In this document: positions 1,150-33,562 of the stretch, piece by piece
Layout of the letters: every line of letters begins with the position of its first letter
How positions within the stretch are numbered: position 1 is the first letter of the stretch
Origin: Paenibacillus sp. IHBB 10380
GTDB taxonomy: Bacteria > Bacillota > Bacilli > Paenibacillales > Paenibacillaceae
Assembly (NCBI RefSeq): GCF_000949425.1
Contig: NZ_CP010976.1
Coordinates: forward strand, 62,001 to 126,000
Length of the DNA: 64,000 nt
Direction of reading: 5' to 3'
The notes under the pieces: model-generated
Seen by the model: the letters and a program-made list of their open reading frames with translations, nothing else
What the model was told of the DNA's origin: nothing
Databases searched by the model: none
Program-made: the position numbers and the translations under genes

Positions 1150-2904
1150 ATGGATGTATATACTAGATATAGAGCGGCGATCTTAGAAATTAAAAATGGA
1201 AATAGTGATATCGGATTTCAATTATTGTTGAAACTATGTAACGATGAAGACGCCGGGAACATAGTTGTCAACATGTTAATAAAAGATTTTTACGAACCAA
1301 GCCTGAAAATGATGAAGAACAGATATGAATTAAACCGAAACCTGTTTTTAGAATATCCTTATTTCTTTCCTAAGGATGTTCCAGTATATGAGGAGCTGAG
1401 TTTTTATGCTTTTAAAGTTGATGAAAAAAAATCGTGTTTATTTGATAAATCTACTTTCACGCACAGATGGATCGAAACCAATTCTGAACGTGAGACTGCA
1501 TATTTTTTTTCTGAAATTAAGGAACCGTTGCTTGTTGAAAACGAAACAAATGAGTTTAATTTTAGATTTTTAATGGATAATGTACGGATGAGCGAAGATG
1601 TTGCTATAGATAACCATATATACATGTATTATGAAAACCCTGATCTATTCTATGCCCTAATGCAATTGATTGATTTTTCTGCCTTGGTTAAAAACCATCA
1701 GTTCGTTTTCTTGCTTGGGCAAGAGGAACGTCTGAAATATCCTATTGACTTTAAAGAAGTATTCGGAATTGATTATAGCAGTATGACTCCGGTACCCGTC
1801 AGACTAGAGGAGTTAAAGCGGTTGTGTATATGGGCAAATCGTCCATATTCAGGTACAGCTCTATCTCTCGATGCATTGGGGAATAATTCCCAAGTGGAAT
1901 ATGCTTTTGAAAGCGATTTCCATATTCTCTCTACAATAAATGACAGGTTGATTACACAGGACCCTACCTTTGTAAAAATCCTCTTTAAAGTACATAAAAC
2001 GTATACACTTGATCAAATAAAATCATTTGTTAATCAACAAGAGGTTTCAATTAAATTAGCGGATCTAGAAGAATTATTTTCTCAGGCAGAATCACACTTT
2101 AAAGACAAGCAGCATTTTAATGTCATTGAAATCTTTAAGGCTATTTTTCTACTTCGTTATTTGAGAAAGAAAAAAAACCCTAGGATAGTCCCTTTGATCC
2201 TGTTTGAGCCTCATTTGCTCAATTTCCATAAAGCATACAGCCATATCATGGAACAATTTCAATACTTAACAGTCCTGACTTGCGTCCGTGATCCTATACG
2301 TGCATTTTTGAGTGGATATGAGAGAAAAAATTTAGTGACAGAAAGATTGCTAAAATTTGTACTGAATTCTGAATATGGATATTCAGATATGGTCGATTCC
2401 AAATATTGCAACCACTACTTCGCCTTTAGATTTGAAGATCTAAAATTGTATCCATCGCAAATGCTGATGGCTGCTTGTGAATTGCTGAATATCCCTTTTG
2501 AAAAGGAAATGTTATTGGTGGAAACTCCTACGGTTGATAGTGAAGGCAAACTTATTACTGGTTTCGATCTGACACCTTTGACAAGAGATTTTAGCGATAT
2601 GATTTCTGAATTTGACAACATACGTTTGAAAATATTCTATGGACGCATTTATAAGCATTATGGTTATGAGTCTTTCGATTTGCAAGAATATGTGTTAAAA
2701 GATGAACTAGTTATGGAGCTATTTGAAATTCCATTTCGTTTTGAGAAGTACCATCAAAACTTATATGGTCATTTGCCTGATGTCCCCAATGCTGTAACTT
2801 TAAGAAGTTGGATTTTTGATACTTTAAGATCTGGTTACTTGAAAAGTAAATATGATGAAGTACTCTTTCCACGGTTACTCTCTCCAGCAGAAAAGAAACA
2901 TTGA
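1150..2904 (+). CDS. Sulfotransferase-like protein, candidate phosphoramidate transferase
   Basis: This 584-residue cytosolic protein has no signal peptide or membrane segment. The clear landmark is CVRDPIRAFLSGYERKN at about residues 378-394, which resembles the 3'-phosphate-binding segment of sulfotransferases (hydrophobic strand, RDP, then R..SGY). The N-terminal 300 residues are not recognisable. The ATG follows a strong GAGGAG at about 1136-1141. It is the first gene of the long plus-strand cluster and sits 39 bases before an APS-kinase-like gene. A conventional reading is PAPS-dependent sulfation. Because the following genes match the Campylobacter phosphoramidate pathway, whose final donor is a 3'-phosphorylated CDP-amidate resembling PAPS, I infer that it could transfer the phosphoramidate to the natural product. 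The length is well above that of simple sulfotransferases (about 300 residues). Confidence 0.6.
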   Translation: MDVYTRYRAAILEIKNGNSDIGFQLLLKLCNDEDAGNIVVNMLIKDFYEPSLKMMKNRYELNRNLFLEYPYFFPKDVPVYEELSFYAFKVDEKKSCLFDKSTFTHRWIETNSERETAYFFSEIKEPLLVENETNEFNFRFLMDNVRMSEDVAIDNHIYMYYENPDLFYALMQLIDFSALVKNHQFVFLLGQEERLKYPIDFKEVFGIDYSSMTPVPVRLEELKRLCIWANRPYSGTALSLDALGNNSQVEYAFESDFHILSTINDRLITQDPTFVKILFKVHKTYTLDQIKSFVNQQEVSIKLADLEELFSQAESHFKDKQHFNVIEIFKAIFLLRYLRKKKNPRIVPLILFEPHLLNFHKAYSHIMEQFQYLTVLTCVRDPIRAFLSGYERKNLVTERLLKFVLNSEYGYSDMVDSKYCNHYFAFRFEDLKLYPSQMLMAACELLNIPFEKEMLLVETPTVDSEGKLITGFDLTPLTRDFSDMISEFDNIRLKIFYGRIYKHYGYESFDLQEYVLKDELVMELFEIPFRFEKYHQNLYGHLPDVPNAVTLRSWIFDTLRSGYLKSKYDEVLFPRLLSPAEKKH

Positions 2905-2943
2905 AATTGAAAACTTATTCAGTTGGATAGGGGGAGTGACAGT

Positions 2944-3456
2944 ATGGTTTATTGGTTAACAGGCTTACCAGGAGCTGGTAAAACTACTATCGGTATGGAG
3001 TTGCACGAACATATAAAAGTTGAACATCCTGGTGTTGTTTTTCTTGACGGGGATCTTCTCCGCGATGTTTTCGGGGGAATTATGGGCTATGGAGTTTCAG
3101 ATCGATTATCATGTTCAATGATATACTCCAGGTTGTGCAAAATGCTGTCTGAACAGGGTCTAATAGTAATTTGCTGTACAGTTTCTATGTTCGATAGCGT
3201 TAGAGCATGGAATATGGAAAATATTTCGGGATATTTTGAAATATACATCAAAGCCTCCTTTTCCACTCTTCGTCAGAGGGACCAAAAAAAACTATATAGC
3301 GGGTTTGATTCTGGAATTCACTCTCAAATAATTGGACTTGATCAAGACATAGAGGAACCTAAAAATCCGAACATAGTTATACAAAATGATGGCGTCTATT
3401 CTGTGGAGGAATGCGTTGGAAGAATTTTATCGCAGGTACAACTAGGCTCTAAATGA
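2944..3456 (+). CDS. APS-kinase-like P-loop kinase (Cj1415-type CDP-amidate kinase candidate)
   Basis: The protein of about 170 residues has a Walker A motif GLPGAGKT at residues 7-14 and the APS-kinase-like LDGDLLRDVFGG. I place the start at the ATG 2944 because AGGGGGA lies 9 bases upstream; an upstream TTG at 2923 is possible. Known relatives phosphorylate the 3'-OH of adenylylsulfate. A capsule-locus relative in C. jejuni (Cj1415) instead phosphorylates cytidine diphosphoramidate. No ATP sulfurylase or sulfate uptake gene is present in the window, whereas candidates for the three enzymes that supply CDP-amidate follow directly, so I favour the latter substrate. The usual C-terminal E.P region of APS kinases is still discernible as EEPKNPNIVI. 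Substrate assignment is inference. Confidence 0.65.
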   Translation: MVYWLTGLPGAGKTTIGMELHEHIKVEHPGVVFLDGDLLRDVFGGIMGYGVSDRLSCSMIYSRLCKMLSEQGLIVICCTVSMFDSVRAWNMENISGYFEIYIKASFSTLRQRDQKKLYSGFDSGIHSQIIGLDQDIEEPKNPNIVIQNDGVYSVEECVGRILSQVQLGSK

Positions 3457-3504
3457 GATTTTCATGTGACTAATTCTTTGAAAAATGATAAAGGACGTGT
3501 GTTC

Positions 3505-4266
3505 ATGAAGGTTAATTGGGATTATACAGATTTGGCAGATGCTTATTTGAAAAGACCAGAATATGTGTCATCAGCTATTGACAGTATGCTACAGAAAGTA
3601 AAACTGTCTGAACCAGGTACGATATGTGATGTAGGGGCTGGAACTGCTCATCTTACACATATGCTGGCAAGCAAAGGACATACGGTTTACGCCGTTGAGC
3701 CTAACTCGAAAATGAGAGCACATGGAATGAAAAGGACTTGTAAGCTTTCCAATGTCTTATGGTTTGATGGAGTAGGGGAAGAGACTGGAATGGAAACTGG
3801 GAAATTTGCTTTGGTCACATTTGGTTCTTCGTTTAATGTGTGTGATCAAATAGCCGCACTCAGGGAGAGCTATCGCATCCTAAGGCCTAATGGTTTTTTT
3901 GCCTGTATGTGGAATCATCGTGGTTTGGACAATCCTTTACAACAGGAAATAGAATCAATAATTCAAAAATATATTATAAATTATAGCTATGGAAGCCGCA
4001 GAGAAGATCAGTCTGCTTTAATTGAGAGTTCAGGTCTTTTTAAATGCTTAGATTATATTGAAGAATCAGCAATAATGAGTATTCCAACGGAAGACTTCAT
4101 TGAAGGTTGGAAATCTCACGGGACTCTATATAGGCAAGCTCAAGACAAGTTCCAAAATATTATAGATGAGATCAGAAATAGTGTTTTAAAACATGATGAG
4201 AATGGTTTTGTAAAAGTCCCTTATACTACCCGAATATGGGTCGCTTTGAGAAATGAAGTAGTTTGA
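3505..4266 (+). CDS. Class I SAM-dependent methyltransferase
   Basis: A Rossmann methyltransferase of 253 residues. Motif I is ICDVGAGTAHLTHML, followed by the acidic VYAVEPN strand end and the post-motif LRESYRILRPNGFFACMW. I choose ATG 3505, preceded by AAAGG at about 3490; a GTG at 3466 would add 13 residues. It sits between the APS-kinase-like and the PPDK-like genes in an apparent operon. In C. jejuni the analogous capsule locus also holds methyltransferase genes needed for the O-methyl group of the phosphoramidate, so this enzyme may methylate the phosphoramidate. It could equally methylate the peptide-polyketide scaffold. Confidence 0.8.
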   Translation: MKVNWDYTDLADAYLKRPEYVSSAIDSMLQKVKLSEPGTICDVGAGTAHLTHMLASKGHTVYAVEPNSKMRAHGMKRTCKLSNVLWFDGVGEETGMETGKFALVTFGSSFNVCDQIAALRESYRILRPNGFFACMWNHRGLDNPLQQEIESIIQKYIINYSYGSRREDQSALIESSGLFKCLDYIEESAIMSIPTEDFIEGWKSHGTLYRQAQDKFQNIIDEIRNSVLKHDENGFVKVPYTTRIWVALRNEVV

Positions 4267-4282
4267 ACTGAGGTGCGAATCA

Positions 4283-6592
4283 ATGCTGAATTTTTCCACA
4301 AAGGCCGAAACCTTAAAACAGGTAGAGGGGAAAGTTGTTAAAAGTAAGGTTTTGTCACAATATTGTTTTACAGTTCGGATGTTGGAAACACAGCCAGACT
4401 TTATTATCGACTCTATTAATTCGCAGTTTGCTAATCATTTACTGATCGTCCGTTCCTCTGCACTCACTGAAGATTCTATCAACAGTTCTCAAGCAGGAAA
4501 GTTTATGTCCGTTTTCAATGTCTCAACAGAAAATGTCATTGAAGCAGCCACAGAAGTTGCAGAAACATTTGTCGATGGTTGTTTGGAGAATCAGATATTT
4601 GTTCAGCCTATGCTGACTAATATCATTATGTCTGGTGTAATTTTCACGATAGATCCTAATACAGGTGGTAATTACTATGTAATTAACTATGATAATACCG
4701 GTTCCACTGATTTAATCACATCAGGCAAGGGAGTAGATACTAACATAAGTTATATCTTCCACCATAAGAAAAGCGGAGAAAAACGATTGGATAGGCTCGT
4801 TGAAGCTGCAGAAGAAATGGTAGAATTATTTAATCATAAAAGTATTGATATCGAATTCGCATTCAATCAAGACGAGGAATTATTTCTCCTACAAGCTCGC
4901 CCACTTGTGCTTAAAATACCAATTGCTGATTATGAAGAACAGCGTAAGGCATTAGAAAGGGTCGAATCGTTTATACAACGTGATATGAAAATAAAACCAT
5001 ATGTGAGCGGAAAACGGACAATTTATGGAGTAATGCCCGACTGGAATCCTGCTGAAATTATTGGAATACGGCCTAAAATGTTGGCTCAGACTTTATACCG
5101 TAGATTGGTTACAAATGGAGTATGGGCATACCAGCGAAATAATTATGGCTACAAAAATTTAAGAAGTTTTCCATTAATGGTAGATCTATGCGGCCTCCCG
5201 TATATCGACACCAGAACGAGCTTTAACTCGTTTATCCCAAAAGACACCGATGAACTGTTAAGTGGAAAACTGGTGGATTATTATCTTGATAGGCTAGCTG
5301 CAACTCCCGATAAGCATGACAAGATTGAATTTGATATCGTTTTATCTTGTTATACCTTTGACCTGCCTGATAAAATCCAAGCGTTAGGCGCTCATGGATT
5401 TACAAAGCTAGAGCAGAAAGCTCTCCAACATTCGCTGCACAAAATGACTAATAACATTATCAATATGAAAAACGGACTTTGGATCGAGGATAGCCAAAAG
5501 ATTAATACACTTAAGGCGCGCCACAAGATAGTTATGGATAGCGATCTAGATTTGATATCCAAGATCTATTGGTTGTTAGAAGACTGTGCAAGATATGGAA
5601 CATTACCTTTTGCAGGCCTCGCTCGGGCAGGGTTTATTGCGGTTTCGCTTCTTAATTCCCTTGTTTCTATAGGTGTACTTTCAGACCAGGATTGCAGAAA
5701 CTATATCGCATCACTGGAGACTGTGAGTTCAAACTTAGGTAGTGATTGGAATAATTTATCATTTAGTGAATTTATTAAAGAGTATGGTCACTTGCGACCA
5801 GGGACATATGATATCACCTCTGAGCGATATGATATGATACCAGATTTTTATTTTGGTTCCCATAGGCAATCAGCTAGGGTGAAAGAAAAGCAATCATTCA
5901 CACTTGAAATTGACCAATACTCAGCCATCCAAAAAGAAATGAATAAGCATGGTATAGAAGGCGATGTTCTTTCATTTTTCGGATTTATAAAAGCAAGCAT
6001 AGAAGGACGTGAATACGCAAAATTCATTTTCAGCCGTAGCCTTTCTGATTGTTTGGAGTTAATAGCTAAATTAGGAAGTGAATATGGATTCTCACGGGAG
6101 GAAATAGCACACATGGACTGTAATATCATTGACCAATTATATTCTTCTGCTGATGATATTCATGCGGTAATTGCTAAATCTATTGCAATAGGTAAAGAAA
6201 AGTATGCGGAGAAGTTAAGTCTTACGATGCCCCCGGTCATTTTGTCATATGAAGATATTTACTCATTCTCCCTGCCTTCAGGTACACCTAACTTTGTTAC
6301 TTTAAATGAAGTTTCAGGAGATGTTTGTTCTGATGATTTCAGAAGAGAGGCAATAAGTAACAAAATCTTACTGATTCCAGCTGCAGACCCGGGTTATGAT
6401 TGGATTTTTTCATGTAACATATTAGGGTTTATTACTGCTTATGGTGGCGTGAATTCCCATATGGCTATTCGTTCGGGAGAACTAGGAATTCCTGCGGTTA
6501 TTGGAGTAGGTGAAAAAATGTTTTTAAAATATCAGCAATCCAAAACTTTACATATCAATTGTGCGAACAAAAAGATTGAAATATTACAATGA
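4283..6592 (+). CDS. PEP-synthase/PPDK-like dikinase, candidate L-glutamine kinase (Cj1418-type)
   Basis: A 769-residue protein with the architecture of the PPDK/PEP-synthase superfamily: an N-terminal ATP-grasp part beginning with VRSSALTEDSINSSQAGKF (about 56-74), a long central domain, and a C-terminal swivelling phosphohistidine domain with YGGVNSHMAIRSGELGIPA, where His is about residue 726. It lacks the C-terminal PEP/pyruvate-binding barrel of true PEP synthases. Members of this shape include rifampicin phosphotransferase and the C. jejuni glutamine kinase Cj1418, which phosphorylates the amide of L-glutamine. The immediate neighbours, an amidotransferase overlapping its stop codon by four bases and a nucleotidyltransferase, support the glutamine-kinase reading over drug inactivation. 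RBS GAGGTG lies 10 bases before the ATG. Confidence 0.75.
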   Translation: MLNFSTKAETLKQVEGKVVKSKVLSQYCFTVRMLETQPDFIIDSINSQFANHLLIVRSSALTEDSINSSQAGKFMSVFNVSTENVIEAATEVAETFVDGCLENQIFVQPMLTNIIMSGVIFTIDPNTGGNYYVINYDNTGSTDLITSGKGVDTNISYIFHHKKSGEKRLDRLVEAAEEMVELFNHKSIDIEFAFNQDEELFLLQARPLVLKIPIADYEEQRKALERVESFIQRDMKIKPYVSGKRTIYGVMPDWNPAEIIGIRPKMLAQTLYRRLVTNGVWAYQRNNYGYKNLRSFPLMVDLCGLPYIDTRTSFNSFIPKDTDELLSGKLVDYYLDRLAATPDKHDKIEFDIVLSCYTFDLPDKIQALGAHGFTKLEQKALQHSLHKMTNNIINMKNGLWIEDSQKINTLKARHKIVMDSDLDLISKIYWLLEDCARYGTLPFAGLARAGFIAVSLLNSLVSIGVLSDQDCRNYIASLETVSSNLGSDWNNLSFSEFIKEYGHLRPGTYDITSERYDMIPDFYFGSHRQSARVKEKQSFTLEIDQYSAIQKEMNKHGIEGDVLSFFGFIKASIEGREYAKFIFSRSLSDCLELIAKLGSEYGFSREEIAHMDCNIIDQLYSSADDIHAVIAKSIAIGKEKYAEKLSLTMPPVILSYEDIYSFSLPSGTPNFVTLNEVSGDVCSDDFRREAISNKILLIPAADPGYDWIFSCNILGFITAYGGVNSHMAIRSGELGIPAVIGVGEKMFLKYQQSKTLHINCANKKIEILQ

Positions 6593-7212
6593 AAAAACTA
6601 ATTTGCATCAGTCAACGTGAAGATTACATACTTGATTATCAAGAAAGAAGGGATGCACTGGATCAAAGATGGGCGTTATTTTTGAAAGAAGTTGGTGGAA
6701 TCCCTCTACCTCTTCCTAATGTACCCAATGTAGTTCAAGATATACTCTCAGCTGTAAAACCTGATGGGATACTTCTTACTGGAGGTAACACTTCATTAGT
6801 CAATGGTGGTGACCCTTCAGAACGAGATATAGTAGATTCATTGTTAATATCTTATGCCATTAACAATTCTATACCGATCATCGGTGTTTGTCTTGGAATG
6901 CAATCCTTGGTGATTTACTTTGGGGGGACATTAAAACCTATTGATGAACATGTTTCAAGTCGTCATATGGTTAATGGGATCATTAACAGAGAGGTAAATA
7001 GTTATCATAAGCTTGCTGTAGACACAATGCCGTCAGAATTAATTGCGCTCGCTAAGACGGAAGGCGGTGTTGTCGAGTGCATCGGTCATCAGTATCTTCC
7101 TATACTGGGGATCATGTGGCACCCTGAGAGGGAAAATCAATTTAATCCAAAAGATTTACTTCTTTTTAAAAATTTTTGGCATGGTCAAATATATAAAAAT
7201 ACTCCATATTGA
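6589..7212 (+). CDS. Class I glutamine amidotransferase-like hydrolase (Cj1417-type gamma-glutamyl-CDP-amidate hydrolase candidate)
   Basis: A 207-residue stand-alone class I GATase domain. The nucleophile elbow GVCLGMQSL puts Cys at 101, and MWHPERE supplies His178 and Glu180, so the triad is complete. The oxyanion-side LLTGGNTSL is also present. It resembles PuuD-type gamma-glutamyl hydrolases. There is no synthetase partner, which fits a hydrolase that cleaves a gamma-glutamyl bond rather than an ammonia donor. In the C. jejuni pathway Cj1417 releases glutamate from CDP-L-glutamine, leaving cytidine diphosphoramidate. The start overlaps the preceding stop by four bases, suggesting translational coupling with the candidate glutamine kinase. 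Confidence 0.75.
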   Translation: MKKLICISQREDYILDYQERRDALDQRWALFLKEVGGIPLPLPNVPNVVQDILSAVKPDGILLTGGNTSLVNGGDPSERDIVDSLLISYAINNSIPIIGVCLGMQSLVIYFGGTLKPIDEHVSSRHMVNGIINREVNSYHKLAVDTMPSELIALAKTEGGVVECIGHQYLPILGIMWHPERENQFNPKDLLLFKNFWHGQIYKNTPY

Positions 7213-7222
7213 AGGGATTAGC

Positions 7223-7981
7223 ATGAAGGCAATTATTTTGGCAGCAGGCCGAGGCAGCCGTATGGGTGCAGTGACAGATAGCCAACCTAAATGCACTGTA
7301 AAGATTTTTGGCAAGACTTTATTGGATCATTGTCTAGAAACATTAGAGAAATCGGGAATTGAACGGTCGAATATCGGTATAGTTACTGGATACAGAAAAG
7401 AAATGATCTGTGCTGAAGGCGTTCATTTTTTTTATAATAATCTATGGGACCAGACCCAGATGTTATTTTCATTGACAATGGCTCATGAATGGCTATGTAG
7501 CGAACCATGTATCGTCACCTATTCGGATATCATATTTCATGAGAATGTAGTGGACAAACTGATTAACAGCAAAAGTGAGATAGCAATCAGTTCTTATTCA
7601 GGATATTTGGATCTGTGGAAAATGCGGTTCCAGAACCCTTTTGAAGATCTGGAGACTTTTCAGTACGAAAATGGAGAACTGATAGACATCGGAAGAAAAC
7701 CGTCTACACAAGAAGAAGTTCAGGGCCAGTATATGGGAATGCTTTATTTTGAACCATCAGGTTGGAGAAAAGTAGAACAGACGATAAAGCATTCCTTACA
7801 TAAGTCTATAGATAAGCTGGAGATAACGACTTTACTACAGCATATGATTCTTTTAGACCACGTGATTAAGGTAGTCGATACGGATGAGATGTGGCTGGAG
7901 TGTGACTCTTTTTCGGACTTGTGTTTATATGAGAAGCATTTTAGCAAGGGAATTAGTAATGCAACTCATTCGAATGGGTAG
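7223..7981 (+). CDS. Nucleotidyltransferase, candidate CTP:phosphoglutamine cytidylyltransferase (Cj1416-type)
   Basis: A 252-residue nucleotidyltransferase. It begins MKAIILAAGRGSRMG, the NTP-binding signature, followed by the substrate-binding PKC (Lys23) and the metal-site strand VTYSDIIF. The size and the later YMGMLYF segment are like LicC/phosphocholine cytidylyltransferase relatives. The ATG at 7223 has GAAGGG about 8 bases upstream. In the C. jejuni phosphoramidate pathway the equivalent enzyme couples CTP with L-glutamine phosphate. The adjacency to the candidate kinase and hydrolase is the main reason for that assignment; on sequence alone it could use a sugar or alcohol phosphate. 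Confidence 0.75.
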   Translation: MKAIILAAGRGSRMGAVTDSQPKCTVKIFGKTLLDHCLETLEKSGIERSNIGIVTGYRKEMICAEGVHFFYNNLWDQTQMLFSLTMAHEWLCSEPCIVTYSDIIFHENVVDKLINSKSEIAISSYSGYLDLWKMRFQNPFEDLETFQYENGELIDIGRKPSTQEEVQGQYMGMLYFEPSGWRKVEQTIKHSLHKSIDKLEITTLLQHMILLDHVIKVVDTDEMWLECDSFSDLCLYEKHFSKGISNATHSNG

Positions 7982-8006
7982 AACACTACGGAATGGAGCG
8001 ATCAAT

Positions 8007-9263
8007 TTGTCAAATATCATATTCTTTTCTATACCGCTTTTCGGTCATGTCAATTACGGACTGAAAATAGCGAAGCAGTTGGCAGTGGAAGGTCATCAGG
8101 TTTACTATTTTTCAGGAGTGAGCTTTAAAGATTTTATACGGAAAAAAGGAGTGCAATTTTGTCATTATTCTGATGGAATCGAAGCCTTATTCAATTTGCA
8201 AGATAGTACGTATAATAAAAAAAAAATGAGTGAAGGGCTTGATCCTGATATTGATTATCTAGAAGAGCTCTGGAAGCTTTCCAATCATTTGTTTGATATT
8301 ACACGCATCATTTCAAAAATTGATTTGGAATATATAAAGACTTTAAATCCAGATCTAATTCTATATGACAATATTGCTATCTGGGGGAAATTAATTGCAG
8401 AAAGCTTAGGGATAAGGTGTATCTCATCAGGGACGCCATATTGTTATAGTCAGGAAATGATCACGAACTATCCTGAAGAGTTTGCCCGTTGTATCTTGAA
8501 AAAACCGAATATTAATGGGAATTCGATAAAATCATTACTTCGCATTTATGATAAGATGCTTCATCAACATTATCCAGAGTTTAAAGACTTCCATTTCACG
8601 ATGAATTATAGCGGCAGTGGGGACTTAAATTTTATTTATACCTCACGAAGTTTTCAGCTTCATCCAGAATTAATAGATGAGTCAATAAATGCTTTTGTAG
8701 GCGTTATCATTGATGATGACGATCAAAAGGCTGATATTACTTCTTATCTTTCACAGTGTAAAAAGACAATTTATGTAGCACTAGGTACTATTTATAATAA
8801 TAAAAATTTGTATAAAGCCTGTATTAATGCACTACGTGGGTATGAAGCAAATATTATTATGAGCATTGGAGATTCAAATGTTTTGGAGGATTTTATTGAT
8901 GTACCATCTGAATGGCATATAGGAAACCACCTGCCGCAGATAAAACTACTTGAACATGTTGATGTATTTGTAACACATGGCGGTGTGAACAGTGTAAGAG
9001 AAGCGGCTCACTTTGGTGTACCTGTAGTGGTTATTCCACAGACAGGTGATCATTTTCTAGTCGCTGAAGATGTAAAGCGTACACAGATTGGTCGTGTTAT
9101 TGATGGTGAATTTGACCCTACACAATTACTGAGTGCGATTGAGGACTGTTTGTATAATCCCTCTATTCAAAGAGCATGTGCAAGCATTTCAAAGGAAATG
9201 CAACAGTGTGGGGGACTGGATGATGTAGTCAGTAAGATCCAAGCATTAATTCATAATAATTAA
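8007..9263 (+). CDS. MGT/UGT-family glycosyltransferase 1
   Basis: A GT-B glycosyltransferase of the macrolide type (GT1). It starts with NIIFFSIPLFGHVNYGL, the acceptor-side N-terminus, and has the donor-binding VFVTHGGVNSVREAAHFGVP and the following QTGDHF. I choose the TTG at 8007 because GGAG lies 8 bases upstream and it leaves the family's usual short N-terminus; an in-frame ATG at 7974 would overlap the preceding gene. The protein has about 419 residues. It probably glycosylates the natural product from a UDP or dTDP sugar. No deoxysugar genes are in the window, so a housekeeping sugar nucleotide is likely. It could serve scaffold decoration or self-protection. Confidence 0.85.
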   Translation: MSNIIFFSIPLFGHVNYGLKIAKQLAVEGHQVYYFSGVSFKDFIRKKGVQFCHYSDGIEALFNLQDSTYNKKKMSEGLDPDIDYLEELWKLSNHLFDITRIISKIDLEYIKTLNPDLILYDNIAIWGKLIAESLGIRCISSGTPYCYSQEMITNYPEEFARCILKKPNINGNSIKSLLRIYDKMLHQHYPEFKDFHFTMNYSGSGDLNFIYTSRSFQLHPELIDESINAFVGVIIDDDDQKADITSYLSQCKKTIYVALGTIYNNKNLYKACINALRGYEANIIMSIGDSNVLEDFIDVPSEWHIGNHLPQIKLLEHVDVFVTHGGVNSVREAAHFGVPVVVIPQTGDHFLVAEDVKRTQIGRVIDGEFDPTQLLSAIEDCLYNPSIQRACASISKEMQQCGGLDDVVSKIQALIHNN

Positions 9264-9398
9264 AACAAAGGGGGTATTAGTTCTTAATGAGGTAAGAATA
9301 TTATGTAAAAAGGCGTCACTAAGACAATAAGAAAAGCAAATACAAATTACATGAAACAGATTTGTTTTGTAGTCTATAAAAAAAGGAGACTAAATTAC

Positions 9399-9647
9399 AT
9401 GGAAAAGAATGAGATAGTTATTTTGGTTGCTAATCAGGTAAAAGAACTTCTTCAAAGTGAAGAACAGCAAATCACTTTGGAAACATCAATTCAAGAATTG
9501 GGATTGAATTCTATTGCGTTTATAAAATTGCTAGTGTTCTTGGAAGATGAATTCAACATTGAATTTGAAGACGATGATTTGCTGATAGAACAATATTCGA
9601 CCTTTGAGGATATGGTTAACAAAATATGTGAAAAACAGAACGTTTGA
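9399..9647 (+). CDS. Discrete acyl carrier protein
   Basis: An 82-residue acidic carrier protein. The phosphopantetheine site is ELGLNSIAF, with the Ser at 38, and the helix II region FLEDEFNIEFEDDDL is typical of an ACP. The ATG at 9399 follows AAAAGGAG with good spacing; an upstream in-frame ATG at 9351 lacks a site. It lies in a cluster with an FkbH domain, an SHMT-like enzyme and a class III aminotransferase, so it may carry a special building block such as a glyceryl-derived or aminoacyl unit. It is not the housekeeping AcpP, since no fatty-acid genes surround it. Confidence 0.85.
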   Translation: MEKNEIVILVANQVKELLQSEEQQITLETSIQELGLNSIAFIKLLVFLEDEFNIEFEDDDLLIEQYSTFEDMVNKICEKQNV

Positions 9648-9676
9648 GATAATTTCAATTGAGAAAGGGTAGGTCT

Positions 9677-11236
9677 GTGGAACTGAGTAAATCGTACAAT
9701 AAGTTTTATTGGATATGCGAAAATAATTTTCGATACTTTAGAGATAAATACCCATTTGTTCAAATCAGTGCTGGTTTGATACATCAACATGTTATTTGGA
9801 CAAGCGGGGATCATGAGCTGGGGACCGACAAGCTTTTAGCTGAACCTTTCCCCGTATATTCTGTTTCCAAACTTTATACCATGCTTTGTTTTTTTGCTGC
9901 CGAAAAAGAAAATCGTGTAGCATTAGAAGATCCAATTACAAAATATTTACCTCAATTTGAATTAAAATACGAAGATGTCAACTGTGCCTCTTCTATCACT
10001 TTCGAACATTTATTGTCCCATACTTCGGGATTACAACATGAAGCATCGGTAGGAAACAATTTCTTTATGAGCAATTCTGTCAATGAGCATATCGACAGTA
10101 TTAACGAAAGTCAGCTTTTATTCTTTCCTGGAAAGAACTACAACTACTCTAATCTAAATTATGATTTAATTGGCTATATTCTTAGCCAGATTTATGGTAT
10201 CTGTTTCGAAACGCTAATCTGCGATTTAGTGTTGGACAAATTAGAAATGACTGATACCTATTATCAAAATATAAATATATGTCAAAATCCTTCGTGGGGA
10301 ATGGTTAGTTCGATCCAGGATTTGCTTAAAAGCCTACGTGCTTTTACTGATCAGGAATATTCCAAGAACTTCTTTAGAGCAGGAATTTTGGATAGAGTAC
10401 AAAGAATTTTTAATGTTAAAGTTGGACAGTATTCCGGATTTGGTTTAGGAATGAAAATAATTCGAGTAGGAAATACCTTCATTGGTATACTAACTGGTAT
10501 GTACTCGGATAACTTTATCGAAATAATGTGGTCCCAGAAGTATAAACTGGGTTTTGTATTATATTTTAGTAGATTTGATAAAAGAGTACTGAAAGAATTA
10601 GATGATTATGATGTTTTCTACAATCTGATATCAGAACTCGAGAACATTAGTTTTACGGGGAATGAATTATTTAATACTTCATACTATTATCCGTATATTT
10701 GTTTAGATAAGATAGGAAGCTATCTCTCTTGTGACAATCATATACTCTACATCAAAGAAACTGATAGTTGTTTGTTTTTAAACTGCTTTGGTGAGGATTG
10801 GATACCACTCCAATGTCTAGAAGAGAATAAGTTTGTTACAGTCGGAATAAAGGATGTTTTAGAAGTCCAATTCGAAATGGTAAATAATGATATTTGTGCT
10901 GTATATGTGAATGGTTATTCGTATTTTAATTACTTTTACCGTAATGATCCCCCTAATACGAATGATCCGAAGTATCAGGGGACGAAATACCTGAGGTTTT
11001 TAGGTAGATATTGTCTTGATATCTCCCGAACAAGTAGTAGAGAGGAACGCCAGAGAATATCTCTGTATAACAGGATTAGTAAAATTGAAGTAACATGTGA
11101 GCAGGGCTGGCTGTATCTCAACAAGAAATATAGACTTATCCATATACGGGACCACTTATTTAAAAAAGTGAATGGTGAACCTGTTTGTTTTGGAGAAAAC
11201 TACGTTATTGTCGGAAATATACGCTATGACAGATGA
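9677..11236 (+). CDS. Beta-lactamase-fold serine hydrolase within the cluster
   Basis: A class C beta-lactamase/penicillin-binding-like protein. With the GTG at 9677 (AAAGGG 8 bases upstream; TTG 9659 is the alternative) it has 519 residues and no signal peptide, so it is probably cytosolic. The catalytic SVSK is at about 62-65 and the YSN motif occurs in NYNYSNLNYD. The C-terminal 200 residues form a separate unassigned part. Cytosolic members of this family in biosynthetic clusters act as esterases, amidases or acyltransferases. Because no thioesterase domain exists in the NRPS/PKS proteins, a role in chain release or acyl transfer is possible but unproven. Its stop overlaps an upstream possible start of the next gene. 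Confidence 0.75.
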   Translation: MELSKSYNKFYWICENNFRYFRDKYPFVQISAGLIHQHVIWTSGDHELGTDKLLAEPFPVYSVSKLYTMLCFFAAEKENRVALEDPITKYLPQFELKYEDVNCASSITFEHLLSHTSGLQHEASVGNNFFMSNSVNEHIDSINESQLLFFPGKNYNYSNLNYDLIGYILSQIYGICFETLICDLVLDKLEMTDTYYQNINICQNPSWGMVSSIQDLLKSLRAFTDQEYSKNFFRAGILDRVQRIFNVKVGQYSGFGLGMKIIRVGNTFIGILTGMYSDNFIEIMWSQKYKLGFVLYFSRFDKRVLKELDDYDVFYNLISELENISFTGNELFNTSYYYPYICLDKIGSYLSCDNHILYIKETDSCLFLNCFGEDWIPLQCLEENKFVTVGIKDVLEVQFEMVNNDICAVYVNGYSYFNYFYRNDPPNTNDPKYQGTKYLRFLGRYCLDISRTSSREERQRISLYNRISKIEVTCEQGWLYLNKKYRLIHIRDHLFKKVNGEPVCFGENYVIVGNIRYDR

Positions 11237-11289
11237 AAAATGTATCTGCTACTCGTAGAGTACATGATGACGAAAGGGAGAATATAGTA

Positions 11290-12525
11290 GTGAGTGAAAT
11301 ACTAGAATTGATAATGAAAAATGAGTTAAAAAGCTATGATACTTTAAGACTTGTGGCCAGTGAAAATATACCGGATGTTGAAGAACGGCTTCCTTTTATG
11401 CTAGATTTGTTCTCCAGATATTCATTTAACAATACTGAAACTTGGAAATATCCAAGCTATTATCTAGATGAAATTGAAAATAACGTAGAATCTATGCTCA
11501 AGGACTATCTAGATTGTAAGTTTGTTAGTGTAAAACCGATTTCCGGTTTAAATGGCATGTTGTCAACAATCGCGGCTTTCAATGAACTTGGTGATCTAGT
11601 GCTATCTCTTGATCCAAAAGATGGAGGTCATCTTGAGACAAGCGGTATAATCAAAAAAATTGGCCTTGAATCAGAGTATCTACCTTTTGATAAAAAAAAA
11701 TGGAAGATTGATGTAGAGAAATTGAAATCCTTCAAGGATTTAGAACGTGTCCAAATGGTATATATCGATTTGTGTATGGTAGCTTTTCCTCAACCAATAA
11801 GGGAACTGAAGGAAGTTTTACCGAAAAAAACGATCCTTGTATATGATGCTTCTCATGTATTCGGTCTAATTTTGGGGAATCAGTTTCAACAACCATTGTT
11901 AGAAGGAGCGGATATTATGTTGGCGAATACACATAAAACGTTCCCAGGCCCTCACAAAGCGGTTTTTGCAACTAATCGTAAATTATTGAAATGGCAGTTT
12001 GAACAGTCTAGTGGACACTTTGTTTCACATCACCATATGGCAGATGTTTCATGTCTTGGACTTGTCCTTGAAAAGGGAAAGGAATATTTCGAGATGTATG
12101 CATCTGAAACTGTCCGCAATGCCGGAAAACTAGCGGAAATTATGAATAAAAATGGTATACACGTGCAATTGGAGCATTTAAATTATACAGCATGTCACCA
12201 ACTCTGGATCGAATGCGGTGATAAAAGTAGCGTTGATGAGGTTATCGATCTTTTAAGCGGGATTGACATAATAGTTAATGGTGCATTGATCCCTTCTCTT
12301 AACGGTGGATGGGGTATTCGAATTGGTGTTCAAGAGATAACTAAGCATCAAATTACGGATGAGGGTATAGAAATCGTAGGAGATATTCTAACTAGCGCAA
12401 TAATAGAGAGAAAAATTTCAGATGAGTTAAAAATAAAGAAAGATCATCTTATGAAATTCTGTTTCGGAAAGATGATTGACAAGAATAAAGTTCAGAATAT
12501 CATTCGTATTCTTACTGAGCGTTAA
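11290..12525 (+). CDS. SHMT-like PLP enzyme (fold type I)
   Basis: Similar to serine hydroxymethyltransferase: LRLVASENIPD near the N-terminus, YDASHVFGL in place of the housekeeping DMAHIAGL, and the PLP lysine in ANTHKTFPGPHKAVF (Lys216 with this start). The sequence is strongly diverged from GlyA. I prefer the GTG at 11290, preceded by AAAGGGAG; ATG 11233, which overlaps the previous stop, is the alternative. Divergent SHMT relatives in biosynthetic clusters act as transaldolases or alpha-substituted serine synthases, making beta-hydroxy or alpha-methyl amino acids. The direct neighbour is a class III aminotransferase, so together they may make an unusual amino acid for one of the adenylation domains. 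Confidence 0.75.
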   Translation: MSEILELIMKNELKSYDTLRLVASENIPDVEERLPFMLDLFSRYSFNNTETWKYPSYYLDEIENNVESMLKDYLDCKFVSVKPISGLNGMLSTIAAFNELGDLVLSLDPKDGGHLETSGIIKKIGLESEYLPFDKKKWKIDVEKLKSFKDLERVQMVYIDLCMVAFPQPIRELKEVLPKKTILVYDASHVFGLILGNQFQQPLLEGADIMLANTHKTFPGPHKAVFATNRKLLKWQFEQSSGHFVSHHHMADVSCLGLVLEKGKEYFEMYASETVRNAGKLAEIMNKNGIHVQLEHLNYTACHQLWIECGDKSSVDEVIDLLSGIDIIVNGALIPSLNGGWGIRIGVQEITKHQITDEGIEIVGDILTSAIIERKISDELKIKKDHLMKFCFGKMIDKNKVQNIIRILTER

Positions 12526-12537
12526 AGGAGGCATAGT

Positions 12538-13623
12538 ATGGATATTAAACAGAATATTTATTTGGATGATTGGAATTGTGTATTCCGCAAGATTCCTGAA
12601 GAAATCACAAAGCGTTCTACAGATATACTGGCCAAAGGTATTAATTATAATGACTCATACGGTTACGAACTTTTAAAGCAGAACATTAAGGATGAATTAC
12701 AGGATATCGGGGAATATGAGCTTTTGTGTTACATCAGCGGAAGCCAGGCAGTTGATCAAGCAGTTTTGATAAGTCAGCACCAGTATAAATGCACTAAATT
12801 ATTTAAGATGAAAGAAGTTTATCATGGATTAGAAATTATGCATGTAGATAATGCAGACCGTTCATTTAAAGAACTTGAATTATGTTACTTTTCTATTGAC
12901 GAAAAGGGAGAATTGATAGCAGATGGCCTGATGGAGGCATCTAACTGCATTATTTTGACAGAACCATTATATTTATTTGCCCAGTATGGCAGTCAGGCGT
13001 TTAACATCATGAAGAATATTCAACGAATTGCTGATCAAAACCATCATATACTAATTGTGGATGAGGTTCGGTCGGGAGTATGGAAATCGGGGACATTCTT
13101 GTTATCTGAACAATTTAATCATGTGACTCCGCATGTCATCTGTTTTTCAAAAGGGTTAGGATTAAGTATTTCAATATCAGCTGCATGTTTTAATAAGCAA
13201 TTTTATAATAATACTCTACTGAAAAAAATGGACGTAATAAAATCAAATTTATCTTTAAGTGAATTGGCCATTCAGAGGGCAAATGATTTACTGGGATATA
13301 GCCGCAAAAATGAGATGTTCATTAATAATAAGACTGAGACAATCAACAGTTGGATAAAAAATGGTTACAGTTCCATTGATGCAAATGATGTGATAAAGCA
13401 GTTCCATACTTCAGGACTCATTCTTGTTTTGGTTTTTAATGAGAATTTATCAAAAATGAGAGTAAAAATGTTTCGGCAGATACTTCTTTCAAAGAAGATT
13501 ATTGTTAGACATTGTGAAGATAGGTTACTTTATATCAATTTCCCTATAGATACAGAGGAAGCAGAAGTCATTATTACGTTTGATATTATGAAAGAGACTA
13601 TCAAAGCGGTTAGTGGAGAGTAA
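12538..13623 (+). CDS. Class III pyridoxal-phosphate aminotransferase
   Basis: A 361-residue PLP enzyme resembling glutamate-1-semialdehyde aminomutase and other class III aminotransferases. The Asp that binds the cofactor nitrogen is in IVDEVRSGVW and the Schiff-base lysine is in CFSKGLGL (Lys205). An early cofactor-binding glycine/serine segment is visible in YISGSQAVDQAV. It is shorter than typical class III enzymes (about 420-450 residues), mostly through a short N-terminus. A strong AAAGGAGG precedes the ATG. It may aminate a carrier-bound or free precursor; the product is unknown. Confidence 0.8.
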   Translation: MDIKQNIYLDDWNCVFRKIPEEITKRSTDILAKGINYNDSYGYELLKQNIKDELQDIGEYELLCYISGSQAVDQAVLISQHQYKCTKLFKMKEVYHGLEIMHVDNADRSFKELELCYFSIDEKGELIADGLMEASNCIILTEPLYLFAQYGSQAFNIMKNIQRIADQNHHILIVDEVRSGVWKSGTFLLSEQFNHVTPHVICFSKGLGLSISISAACFNKQFYNNTLLKKMDVIKSNLSLSELAIQRANDLLGYSRKNEMFINNKTETINSWIKNGYSSIDANDVIKQFHTSGLILVLVFNENLSKMRVKMFRQILLSKKIIVRHCEDRLLYINFPIDTEEAEVIITFDIMKETIKAVSGE

Positions 13624-13694
13624 CAATTTGTAACCGCTTAATATAACTTTATAAAATATTTTTGTATATAGGATTTTAGGGGAGGATATAAAGA

Positions 13695-14477
13695 ATGCTA
13701 GATCTATCAAAGACAACAATTTTATCTTTCGAAATCGGTGATGATTGTAATTTACAGAAATGCCATAAAGAATGTCCGATTAACGCTAGAACTTATCTCA
13801 AACAAGAAAAACATCTTACCGTTGAAAAAATAGTCGAAAGTATCAATCAGGCAAAAGATATGAATTTTAACGGTTTTGTAGCGTTCCATAACTACAATGA
13901 GCCATTGCTTCACAAAGATAAATTATTAGAAATAATTGAAAAAGCTCAACCTTGCAAGTATTTATTGTGGACAAACGGGTTACTGTTGAATAGAAATGTA
14001 GAAAAAAATGAATTTCTAAAAAAATTTGATTTTATCTGTATTACTTGTTATTTCAAGAAGGATATTTCGTTTTTTGAACAGATAAAGGAATTTCACGGAA
14101 ATGTACACATTTTTGACTGGGAACTTGATGATCGTCTCGACGCCTACTCGAGAGATTATTTTAACGAAATAGGATGTAAAAGACCATTATTTGAATTACC
14201 CATTGATTATTACGGAAATGTACATCTATGCTGTTTTGATTGGAACAATACTTATGAAATTGGGAATATTAACGACACCTCTTTAACAGAAATTGTTAAT
14301 TCAGATACTTACCAAAACATATTAGCAAGCACGAAAAAAAAGCTTTTAGACAGAACAACCTGCCCTGAAATTTGCAAAAACTGCAATCACCCTTGGATCT
14401 CTTATACCAAATATTACGATATTTATTATGGGCAGCGTCAAGAATTATGTGTAAATGAGAATAAACTGGTCTTGTAG
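13695..14477 (+). CDS. Radical-SAM/SPASM-like protein 1, 3' end replaced by an IS
   Basis: The N-terminus carries a cysteine motif with unusual spacing: Cys18, Cys23, His24 and Cys27 in DDCNLQKCHKECP, instead of the canonical CX3CX2C. The family-like GFVAFHNYNEP and LLWTNGLLL follow, and the C-terminus is a SPASM-like region with LCCFDWNNTYEIGN and TCPEICKNCNHP. A paralogue lies at 32825. The last residues after about GQRQ are encoded inside the left end of the IS256-type element, so the native C-terminal tail is lost; the shared domains appear complete. It may catalyse a radical modification in the pathway, or be an Fe-S protein without normal radical-SAM chemistry. The RBS is GGGGAGG. Confidence 0.7.
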   Translation: MLDLSKTTILSFEIGDDCNLQKCHKECPINARTYLKQEKHLTVEKIVESINQAKDMNFNGFVAFHNYNEPLLHKDKLLEIIEKAQPCKYLLWTNGLLLNRNVEKNEFLKKFDFICITCYFKKDISFFEQIKEFHGNVHIFDWELDDRLDAYSRDYFNEIGCKRPLFELPIDYYGNVHLCCFDWNNTYEIGNINDTSLTEIVNSDTYQNILASTKKKLLDRTTCPEICKNCNHPWISYTKYYDIYYGQRQELCVNENKLVL

Positions 14478-15754
14478 AACTAGGGTTAGTCTTTGGTGGA
14501 GAACATATCTAGCAGTTCTGAACGAGCTTTATCAAAACCAATGTGACAACGGGTAGCAAAGCGTTGGTTATAGCTTTCAAACTGTGCAACCAAGAATTTT
14601 TCTAGTGCTTCTTCATGGGGGAATTGCTCCTTACGATTCGTGTATTTCTTAATCTGTTTGTTAAACGACTCGATTAAATTCGTCGAATAAATGCTTCTCC
14701 ATATCGGCTTAGGAAAACTGTAAAACGTAAAGATATAGGGGTTTTCTCGTAGGGATTTAATGACCTTAGGATAAGCGGTTTTCCACTTGTCACAGAAGGC
14801 TTTTAGCGCTTCTTTACCAGCTTGTTCATCGTTCATCGTCGGATCGATAGACGGATTTGAAGTCCTCACAGACTTCTGCTCGATCTGAGACTCGAACTTT
14901 ATGGGCAATATTACGAACTAAGTGAACACAGCATGTTTGGTACTTCGCATGCGGATAGATCTCCTGAATCGCATTCACAATGCCTGTGAGTCCATCGGAG
15001 ATAAACAGAAGGATTTGTTCGGTACCACGCTCTTTCACGTCCTGGAGCAGTTCTTTCCAGATGTAAGCTGATTCGGTCGGTGCAACGGCGTACGTGAGTA
15101 CTTCCTTGGTGCCATCCTCACGAATTCCTACGGCAATATAGACCGCTTCCTTAGATACGGTTTTACGCTTAACCGCGATATAGGTAGCATCGATATAGAC
15201 GCACACATAGCGCTTCTCAAGTGGTCGTTTCATAAAAGCATCGACATGTTCGACCATTACTTTGGTCATGTTCGATACGGTTTGCGGCGTGTAGTGGTGA
15301 CCATACATTTTCTCGATTAGGTCGGCAATCTCCGTCATCGTGACACCCTTTTGAAACATGTGAATAACGAAAGATTCTAGCGTGTCATTTGAGCGTTTAT
15401 ACGGTGCTACGGTCTGTTGCTTAAACTCTCCATTACGATCTCGAGGAATGTTTAACTGCAGGTCCCCATACTCGGTATGAAGCGTTCGACAGTAGCCACC
15501 GTTTCGAGAATTACCTGAATTTACGCCTATACGGTCATATTTTTCATAGTCTAGAAATGCAGTAAGCTCCGTCTCTAGCAGATGATTCATGGCAGCTTCT
15601 AAGTGATTACGAAAAACCTCCGTCACATCTTTTTTTGTGACTAGAGCTTGAACTAAATCTGTTGTAAAATGATTCATAGGGAAGACCTCTCTCTGTGAAT
15701 TTTGTGTGGTAACTCAATTCTACAAGAAAAGGTCTTCCTTTTTCTATTTACACA
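14448..15754 (-). mobile_element. IS256-family insertion sequence (frameshifted copy)
   Basis: An element of about 1.3 kb bounded by imperfect inverted repeats. The left end begins TGTGTAAAT at 14448 and the right end finishes ATTTACACA at 15754; inside both ends a second matching block (CTTGTAGAA) is seen. I could not identify a convincing 8-9 bp target duplication. It carries one minus-strand transposase gene broken by a frameshift. It separates the plus-strand genes of the cluster between the radical-SAM-like gene and the first NRPS gene, and may be polar on transcription. Confidence 0.8.
14486..15677 (-). pseudogene. IS256-family (mutator-type) transposase, frameshifted
   Basis: Two overlapping minus-strand frames together give a nearly complete mutator-type DDE transposase. 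The N-terminal 283 residues (14826-15677) include VCVYIDATYIAVKR and LLFISDGLTG, carrying the first two catalytic Asp. The C-terminal frame (to 14486) includes IYSTNLIESFNKQIKKYTNRK. The frame breaks at a perfect 7-bp tandem duplication, GTTCATC at 14824-14830 and again at 14831-14837 on the plus strand. Removing one copy restores a continuous YRSDDEQAGKEA. The lesion therefore looks recent and simple. Confidence 0.9.
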
Positions 15755-15853
15755 AAATATTTTACGCTCTCTTATTATGAGAAACCATTCAGTAAGGTGT
15801 AATATACCATTTTAGTTTATTTTTTAAACAAACTTTCAAGAAAGGATACATAT

Positions 15854-32828: not shown

Positions 32829-33562
32829 GTATGGTGTTTGATTTGTCTTTACTTCAATTATTATCGTTTGAAATTGGTACGGATTGCAACTTGAAATCGG
32901 CACATGATAACTGCCCTATTAACTATATCAAACGTCCAAAGAATAAACCGACGCTTACCGTTGAAAAAATATGTGAGGCGGTACATCATGCCAACGATTT
33001 AAAATTTGATGGATATGTAGCGTTTCACCATTATAATGAGCCGTTAATGTACATCAAACAAATCTCGCAAGTAATACAAAAATTGCCAAACAATCGTTTT
33101 CTGCTTTGGAGTAATGGACTTTTGATACCTCATATTGAAAGATTGGGGTATTCACTTGATATGTTCGATAAGATCATTTTGACATGCTATGACGAAAAGA
33201 ATCGCGACCTTCTGAATAGAGTGAAAGACAGGCACCGAGATGTTGTAATCAATTCAGCCAAAATGGATGAACGTGTTGAGATATACGAAAGTAAATATGA
33301 GAATTTAGTTGCATGTAAAAAAGTTTTTTTAGAAATACCAATTGACCATTATGGAGAAGTGGCGTTGTGTACCCATGATTGGAAAAATACATACCGCTTA
33401 GGTAATATCATCGAGACATCACTATATGATGTAATAAGTAGCGAAAGATATCAAAATATGTTGGCTATGGCTAAAAAAATCAAATTGCAACCTGGAGCAC
33501 CAGATATTTGCAGAAATTGCCAATTCTCTTATTTGACTTATAATCCTAAAGCAGAAGAGTAG
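32825..33562 (+). CDS. Radical-SAM/SPASM-like protein 2 (incomplete Cys motif)
   Basis: A 245-residue paralogue of the protein at 13695. The two share the FEIG start, EKI at a similar position, GYVAFHHYNEP, LLWSNGLL, and the C-terminal LCTHDWKNTYRLGN and ICRNCQ. The N-terminal motif is DCNLKSAHDNCP: Cys21, Ala26 where the paralogue has Cys23, then His27 and Cys30. The conserved pattern in the pair is therefore C-X5-H-X2-C, with His at the place of the second cluster cysteine. Either the cluster is ligated in an unusual way or the protein is a non-catalytic partner. ATG 32825 overlaps the previous stop; ATG 32831 is an alternative start. Confidence 0.7.
   Translation: MSMVFDLSLLQLLSFEIGTDCNLKSAHDNCPINYIKRPKNKPTLTVEKICEAVHHANDLKFDGYVAFHHYNEPLMYIKQISQVIQKLPNNRFLLWSNGLLIPHIERLGYSLDMFDKIILTCYDEKNRDLLNRVKDRHRDVVINSAKMDERVEIYESKYENLVACKKVFLEIPIDHYGEVALCTHDWKNTYRLGNIIETSLYDVISSERYQNMLAMAKKIKLQPGAPDICRNCQFSYLTYNPKAEE

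Follow-up and report, generated by a model that had tools for sequence, protein, structure and literature searches.

Within a stretch of 64,000 nucleotides of Paenibacillus sp. IHBB 10380 (positions 62001-126000 of contig C1 in a genome of 5.79 Mb; here called the window), six genes at positions 1150-7981 very likely constitute a phosphoramidate donor cassette, as judged from the gene families, catalytic residues and gene order observed here and from a sequence profile of the first gene product. We estimate the probability that they serve as a tailoring cassette for the adjoining cluster of nonribosomal peptide synthetase (NRPS), FkbH and polyketide synthase (PKS) genes at about two-thirds, and on balance we expect the NRPS/PKS product to carry a phosphorus-nitrogen (P-N) group. 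The system appears to be a variant of the phosphoramidate pathway known from Campylobacter, in a new setting.

The six genes of the cassette

The genes, here called TRF, APSK, MT, GLNK, GAT and NTP, were all located on the + strand and were nearly gapless in the list of open reading frames (ORFs). The names below refer to adenylyl sulfate (APS), 3'-phosphoadenylyl sulfate (PAPS), S-adenosylmethionine (SAM), and cytidine di- and triphosphate (CDP, CTP).

1150..2904, + strand: TRF, putative phosphoramidyl transferase of 584 amino acids, C-terminal half of the PAPS-sulfotransferase type (profile A1)
2923..3456, likely start ATG 2944, + strand: APSK, APS-kinase-like candidate CDP-diphosphoramidate 3'-kinase (PRK05541)
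3466..4266, + strand: MT, SAM methyltransferase, candidate for O-methylation of the phosphoramidate (PF08241, 2.9e-11)
4283..6592, + strand: GLNK, L-glutamine kinase family protein of the Cj1418 type (PRK05849; His726)
6589..7212, + strand: GAT, class I amidotransferase, candidate gamma-glutamyl-CDP-amidate hydrolase of the Cj1417 type (NF045546; catalytic triad)
7223..7981, + strand: NTP, candidate CTP:phosphoglutamine cytidylyltransferase of the Cj1416 type (PF12804, 1.6e-15; 1jyk)

The five genes from APSK to NTP had been described in an initial annotation of the sequence and were found where it placed them, open and co-directional. The gene for TRF was absent from that annotation, which had understated the completeness of the cassette.

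The GLNK protein scored 922 bits against the NCBIfam model PRK05849 (cut-off 501), a family that we take to contain Cj1418. Its classification as a rifamycin phosphotransferase, a grouping that the initial annotation had kept in view for this PPDK-like protein, was rejected with 29 bits versus a cut-off of 999, as was its classification as a phosphoenolpyruvate (PEP) synthase (at most 58.5 bits versus a cut-off of 850). The only Pfam domains identified were PPDK_N and the mobile, swivelling His domain PEP-utilizers, in agreement with its earlier description as PEP-synthase-like but lacking the PEP-binding barrel. The histidine of the swivelling domain, His726, was invariant in 29 loci, and the residues Cys101, His178 and Glu180 of GAT, correctly described beforehand as intact in a stand-alone amidotransferase, were invariant across 24 aligned sequences; both alignments include the window and exclude the split copy L048. 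The best of 23 models for GAT was NF045546, which represents gamma-glutamyl-CDP-amidate hydrolase, with 106 bits, about 52 bits above the next.

The APSK protein passed the PRK05541 model (183 bits, cut-off 127), which presumably includes Cj1415, but was rejected as a true APS kinase by the apsK model TIGR00455 (99.1 bits versus a cut-off of 138.7). A stronger APS kinase was encoded elsewhere in the genome (C1:3808183), with 193 bits against PF01583 versus 91 bits for APSK, and a third match to PF01583 was interrupted and spanned 50 residues (37 bits). The protein thus did not group with the true APS kinases, a possibility that had been raised along with the original prediction. For NTP, the expectation that it would fall outside the sugar nucleotidyltransferases was borne out by the best relative in the PDB, the CTP:phosphocholine cytidylyltransferase 1jyk (3e-8), but not by NCBIfam, in which the 25 matches listed were mostly to sugar-1-phosphate nucleotidylyltransferases; all of these were under cut-off, including the best, a family of that type (72.7 bits, cut-off 292).

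We consider TRF likely to be a phosphoramidyl transferase on the basis of profile comparisons. The sequence by itself gave one weak match in the PDB, to the CurM sulfotransferase (0.015). A profile of 25 sequences, profile A1, matched the CurM sulfotransferase 4gbm (1.1e-9) and the polyketide synthase chain 4gox (1e-5), which we take to be a sulfotransferase domain, and also tyrosylprotein sulfotransferases (1-2e-4). Among the 25 members, 21 matched Sulfotransfer_3 (PF13469) at E<=1; TRF was not among these, and PF13469 had no match in the genome at E<=0.1. The sequences SGT at residue 234 and RDPIRAFLSG at residue 380 of TRF aligned with SGT and RNP..S in the sulfotransferase domains of the fusion proteins described below, SGT and RDP..S being presumably the PAPS-binding motifs, and a profile constructed in the opposite direction, from these fused domains, matched TRF at 5.5e-13 in a search of a small local set. 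TRF was thereby placed among the PAPS-dependent sulfotransferases by profile and motifs, not by its single sequence. In 394 genomes of the family to which the strain belongs, profile A1 identified a full-length TRF in one genome. In 7 genomes it matched the C-terminal domain of an adenylation fusion encoded beside GLNK, and in genome G161 a sulfotransferase-like protein beside GLNK. In 13 genomes the N-terminal part of the profile alone matched further proteins, of which the one inspected was a glycosyltransferase.

Proposed pathway

In Campylobacter jejuni, Cj1416 couples phosphoglutamine to CTP, Cj1417 cleaves off glutamate, and methyltransferases complete the O-methyl phosphoramidate (MeOPN). 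The C. jejuni pathway includes a glutamine kinase and 3'-phospho-CDP-diphosphoramidate (PMC6429109, PMC10971088), the latter compound being an intermediate (PMC6429109). This intermediate is PAPS-like, so a transferase of the PAPS type would be expected to act on it.

With the chemistry of the first steps taken from the Campylobacter literature, the activities predicted for the window would be as follows. GLNK would phosphorylate the amide nitrogen of glutamine, NTP would couple the phosphoglutamine with CTP, and GAT would remove glutamate to yield cytidine diphosphoramidate, to which APSK would add a 3'-phosphate to give 3'-phospho-CDP-phosphoramidate, a PAPS-like donor. The O-methyl group would be supplied by MT. 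TRF would recognize the 3'-phosphonucleotide and move the (methyl)phosphoramidyl group onto a hydroxyl of the assembly-line product, which might belong to the glyceryl unit, to a tyrosine or to a sugar, and the product would then be secreted by ABC exporters.

Gene order and distribution of the cassette

The order transferase-APSK-MT-GLNK-GAT-NTP was also found at 3 loci (L002, L003, and L005) in assemblies titled Epulopiscium, Selenomonadales and Rhodospirillales, which represent uncultured bacteria of other groups. The identities for the five genes from APSK to NTP ranged from 39% to 55%, and the recurrence of the same order suggests that the grouping is more than chance. The MT proteins in the same position were 52% to 55% identical to that in the window. 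L003 contained a second MT (33% identity), the APSK frame in L005 was short (122 amino acids), and the L005 transferase of 396 amino acids scored above the Sulfotransfer_1 cut-off. A TRF-like gene was furthermore present in L075, together with GLNK, MT (58% identity), GAT, NTP and APSK, amid glycan genes for NeuB, UDP-GlcNAc 2-epimerase and UDP-galactopyranose mutase.

With the centre genome counted each time, 11 of 295 genomes of the family encoded a GLNK scoring above the family cut-off. At E<=1e-60, GLNK was found in 2 of 398 genomes of the class and in 6 of 295 genomes of the order to which the L002 genome belongs, the genus Epulopiscium being placed in Lachnospirales. The SPASM protein RSAM1, encoded downstream of the cassette, was found at E<=1e-10 in this genome alone among 100 of the genus. 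Because of the rarity of both, the cluster looks like a recent arrival.

We compared the presence of APSK and of a sulfotransferase-type gene at 30 GLNK loci, each read over 14-26 kb of sequence (over 40 kb in the case of the window). Both genes were present at 11 loci and neither at 11, while 5 contained APSK only (L047, L048, L049, L054, L079) and 3 the transferase only (L039, L040, L076). The association yielded p = 0.014 in a Fisher test, a value that overstates the pairing because 6 of the 11 loci with both genes represent one clade. A strict rule whereby APSK implies a sulfotransferase-type gene fails at the 5 loci with APSK only. Left uncounted were a PF13469 match in L004, apparently located about 8 kb from GLNK, and a gene annotated as sulfotransferase family 2 by RefSeq at 4.4 kb distance in L049. 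Three loci that lacked APSK contained a gene nearby that was either CDP-glycerol phosphotransferase-like (L050, L074) or for a CDP-alcohol phosphatidyltransferase (L053), although L047 provides a counter-example with both APSK and a CDP-glycerol-transferase-like gene.

The genes were joined in different ways at several loci. GLNK and GAT were fused in a single ORF in L078 (3198-6233), the N-terminus of the GLNK ORF was NTP-like in L050 (11326-14334) and L051 (11149-14358) and cytidylyltransferase-like in L076 (2834-5614), and APSK was located at the end of an ORF of 861 amino acids in L049 (8570-11155). In L040 (4947-11974; genome G161), GLNK-GAT was accompanied by the sulfotransferase-like protein, with thymidylate- and guanylate-kinase-like genes in the place of APSK; no NTP was found at this locus, and a gene for an NTP_transf_5 protein was located on the other side. 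The Agrobacterium vitis plasmid pRvVAT039a (L053, 7529-14844) contained GLNK-GAT-NTP together with genes for the CDP-alcohol phosphatidyltransferase and a LysE-type exporter, and tRNA-ligase-like and TauD-like genes on the opposite strand. This may be a further cluster for a P-N small molecule, one that relies on another type of transferase. In L074 (6932-18682), GLNK-GAT-NTP was flanked by glycosyltransferases, by the CDP-glycerol phosphotransferase-like gene and by one for flagellin, which may indicate a phosphoramidate on a flagellin glycan. A phage collection yielded one GLNK relative, with 33% identity, in MT837632.1 (679-2994), a record of 9.5 kb from human faeces named Bacteriophage sp.

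A second type of thiotemplate cluster

A different thiotemplate cluster, in which a sulfotransferase-type domain was fused to an adenylation domain beside GLNK, was identified in 7 of the 394 genomes (L038, L039, L041-L044, and L046). Like the window, all 7 clusters contained GLNK, GAT, a ketosynthase (KS)-like gene and a sulfotransferase-type domain, here within the adenylation-sulfotransferase fusion. MT, NTP and APSK were each present in 6 of the 7 clusters as read, MT and NTP being missing in L046 and APSK in L039. They differed from the window in the fusion of the transferase to the adenylation domain, in their compactness, and in their GLNK proteins, which formed a single clade with a support of 0.996, separate from the GLNK of the window. 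Recruitment into thiotemplate clusters therefore seems to have occurred at least twice.

The annotation of the Pfam domains of the fusion, and of genes for a BtrH-like protein, regulators and an exporter, comes from L041. In this locus (2226-18468; genome G292) we observed genes for a KS, a carrier protein, the fusion of the adenylation domain with Sulfotransfer_3, GLNK, GAT, MT, NTP, a BtrH-like protein, APSK, AraC regulators and an exporter of the major facilitator superfamily.

The NRPS/FkbH/PKS genes downstream of the cassette

Past NTP, the run of genes continued to position 14477, and the largest gap between listed ORFs in the entire run 1150-14477 was at most 90 bases. It was followed by a transposase remnant on the - strand and then by the NRPS and PKS genes, a second glycosyltransferase, a second SPASM protein, an acyltransferase and the exporters, ending at 38091.

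7884..9263 (ORF; start probably about 7974), + strand: GT1, macrolide-type glycosyltransferase (TIGR01426, 214 bits, cut-off 260)
9351..9647, + strand: stand-alone acyl carrier protein (ACP) (PF00550, 3e-11)
9659..11236, + strand: serine hydrolase of family S12 with the beta-lactamase fold, which may be a prodrug peptidase (PF00144, 1.8e-27)
11233..12525, + strand: pyridoxal phosphate enzyme resembling serine hydroxymethyltransferase (SHMT) and fluorothreonine transaldolase (PF00464, 9.3e-18; TIGR04506, 181 bits, under the cut-off of 650)
12538..13623, + strand: class III aminotransferase-like protein (PF00202, 1.3e-14)
13695..14477, + strand: RSAM1, SPASM protein, paralog of RSAM2 (PF13186, 8.1e-15)
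14486..15677, - strand: Mutator-family transposase remnant (14826-15677 matches positions 13-285 of 379 in PF00872, 3.8e-90; overlapping ORF 14486-14908)
15854..22795, + strand: NRPS1, condensation-FkbH-carrier-condensation-adenylation-carrier with a tail (Pfam Condensation, 2 copies; AMP-binding; PP-binding, 2 copies)
22798..27288, + strand: PKS, KS-ketoreductase-ACP with a C-terminal BtrH-like domain (Pfam)
27285..31541, + strand: NRPS2, condensation-adenylation-peptidyl carrier protein with a second condensation-superfamily stretch (Pfam; epimerization-like motif HHLVIDYVSW at 1141)
31599..32828, + strand: GT2, macrolide-type glycosyltransferase (TIGR01426, 191 bits, cut-off 260)
32825..33562, + strand: RSAM2, SPASM protein (PF13186, 4.9e-11)
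33582..34778, + strand: trans-acting acyltransferase (PF00698, 45.6 bits, cut-off 32.7; fabD, 156 bits, cut-off 260.9)
34820-36451 and 36448-38091, + strand: two ABC exporter half-transporters (annotation)

A link between the cassette and the NRPS/PKS genes is favoured by the continuous run of the cassette with the ACP and precursor-type genes, and by two pairs of related genes split between the operons, namely RSAM1 and RSAM2 (43% identity) and GT1 and GT2 (27%). The FkbH domain in NRPS1 (residues 598-913) scored 258 bits against TIGR01686 (cut-off 146.65). FkbH loads a glyceryl unit, and a free hydroxyl on the product is for this reason plausible.

No acyltransferase domain was found with Pfam in the PKS itself. 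The second condensation-superfamily stretch in NRPS2 is presumably an epimerization domain. The adenylation codes were read by hand, with positions and code table that we assume to be correct, and give weak leads only: Tyr-like for NRPS1 (DGTISAEVLK) and Asn-like for NRPS2 (DFTKIGEIGK). In the PDB, the ClbP peptidase was the third match of the S12 hydrolase (8.3e-12), behind Flp and IS11. A D-Asn prodrug scheme is conceivable as a lead, given this ClbP-related hydrolase and the Asn-like code and epimerization-like motif of NRPS2. For RSAM1 and RSAM2, Pfam identified the SPASM domain only, without the canonical N-terminal CxxxCxxC, and RSAM2 seems to be degenerate at the SAM cluster. Three related proteins were encoded after the exporters (39330-40325, 41647-42477, and 43552-44556), one of which was weakly BtrH-like, recalling the end of the PKS.

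The region upstream of the cassette, given here in the coordinates of locus L037, contained a peptidase S51-like gene and a 23S rRNA methyltransferase gene, the latter at 12650-14098 and thus a few kb from the cassette, followed by an S12-type gene in 2 adjoining ORFs and an IS110-type transposase (L037:12650-18091). The closest named matches of the 23S rRNA methyltransferase were from Paenibacillus, with identities of 84-86% to the proteins of Paenibacillus sp. DS2015, P. glacialis and P. macquariensis, for which reason we refer to the genome as Paenibacillus-type. No genes for the assembly of capsules or polysaccharides were found among the 5 annotated upstream ORFs and nearly all of the larger ORFs at 1150-44556 in the window, other than those for GT1 and GT2, and the claim in the initial annotation that the neighbours are NRPS/PKS and exporter genes rather than capsule genes holds for the ORFs annotated.

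Alternative explanations

Several observations weigh against the assignment of the cassette to the NRPS/FkbH/PKS cluster or against its predicted biochemistry. TRF had no Pfam match as a single sequence, even at E<=1, NTP was assigned by no function-specific model, and the score of GAT falls under the equivalog cut-off of 250 for NF045546. GAT proteins from 7 other GLNK loci likewise scored only 103-139 bits, so the low score may reflect a strict model and not an unusual protein in the window. Furthermore, the pairing of APSK with a transferase has 8 exceptions among the 30 loci, relatives of the cassette occur in glycan-gene settings in L074, L075 and on Vibrio and Pseudohalocynthiibacter plasmids, and the transposase remnant, which was not mentioned in the initial annotation, stands between the cassette operon and the NRPS genes. 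The latter two observations would fit a cassette that, like the Campylobacter genes, supplies methylphosphoramidate to a surface glycan or to flagellin, with the adjacency to the NRPS/PKS genes being incidental. We nevertheless regard this as unlikely, since the genes annotated in and upstream of the window included none for capsule or polysaccharide assembly apart from the 2 macrolide-type glycosyltransferases, and since the operon extends into genes for the ACP, the SHMT-like enzyme and RSAM1, a paralog of RSAM2 from the NRPS operon.

The cassette might also combine an ordinary sulfation pair, with APSK producing PAPS and TRF acting as a sulfotransferase on the product, with a separate function for GLNK, GAT and NTP. 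APSK has an APS_kinase match in Pfam and is named adenylyl-sulfate kinase by NCBI, TRF resembles the CurM sulfotransferase, and cysN and cysD adjoin the GLNK locus on a Vibrio plasmid. Yet APSK in the window, as well as the APSK beside GLNK in L041, falls in PRK05541 and not in apsK, a stronger APS kinase is present elsewhere in the genome, the five genes keep a fixed order with GLNK, and the genes annotated at the window locus did not include one for a sulfate adenylyltransferase, which makes this explanation highly improbable. We attach just as little probability to the phosphorylation by GLNK of an amide other than glutamine, in which case a substituted phosphoramidate or another amidate would be transferred rather than a phosphoramidate with a free NH2 group. 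The low score of GAT and the Asn-like adenylation code, hand-read with an assumed code table, would fit such a reaction, but GLNK is directly followed by an amidohydrolase of the gamma-glutamyl type whose triad is intact, as expected if glutamine were the carrier.

Relation to known systems and significance

The predicted enzymes of the cassette are of the kinds present in the Campylobacter MeOPN system: a glutamine kinase, candidates for the cytidylyltransferase and the gamma-glutamyl-CDP-amidate hydrolase, a 3'-kinase resembling APS kinase, and a methyltransferase, with the transferase again encoded by a gene of its own. This likeness to Cj1415-Cj1418 was judged from family models and PDB relatives, and none of the PDB matches listed for GAT, APSK, GLNK and NTP was named as one of these proteins. 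The MeOPN transferases of Campylobacter are Cj1421 and Cj1422, and orthologues of cj1416-cj1418 were noted in other Campylobacter in 2014 (PMC3907429). The two systems differ in that the Campylobacter genes are located in the capsule locus, whereas in this Paenibacillus-type genome the cassette lies within an NRPS/FkbH/PKS cluster and its TRF is sulfotransferase-like by profile. CurM, the sulfotransferase of the curacin PKS and the closest relative of TRF with a solved structure, transfers sulfate from PAPS, whereas TRF is proposed to move a phosphoramidyl group.

The talopeptin/phosphoramidon kinase of Baulig 2019 is said to phosphorylate the peptide nitrogen directly, without a nucleotide amidate donor, which would set this route apart from the one proposed here. 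Talopeptin/phosphoramidon is a bacterial phosphoramidate natural product (PMC9961378), and the proposed product would be another. No paper on a MeOPN cluster that was Gram-positive or linked to an NRPS was found among the matches listed in the open literature, outside of which most subscription papers lie. The glutamine kinase is called C. jejuni-specific in a 2022 review (PMC9561416); here, the GLNK family was found in Paenibacillus-type genomes, in genomes of the order of the Epulopiscium assembly and on proteobacterial plasmids, and in at least 2 types of thiotemplate clusters.

We give even odds to a broader interpretation, in which 3'-phospho-CDP-phosphoramidate is a general PAPS-like donor outside capsules, enzymes of the sulfotransferase fold have evolved into transferases of phosphoramidyl groups, and NRPS/PKS-type clusters in Paenibacillus and related bacteria have acquired this donor on two or more occasions, giving rise to an undescribed class of P-N natural products. 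P-N groups can mimic tetrahedral intermediates, and such products could therefore be enzyme inhibitors. If the interpretation is correct, P-N natural products would be minable by a single gene, GLNK, with a recognizable transferase adjoining it, 3'-phospho-CDP-amidate would be a testable donor, and the sulfotransferase fold would have acquired a new use. What resembles a full set of genes for making and attaching a rare P-N group, familiar chiefly from the Campylobacter coat, would then point to an undiscovered kind of natural product.

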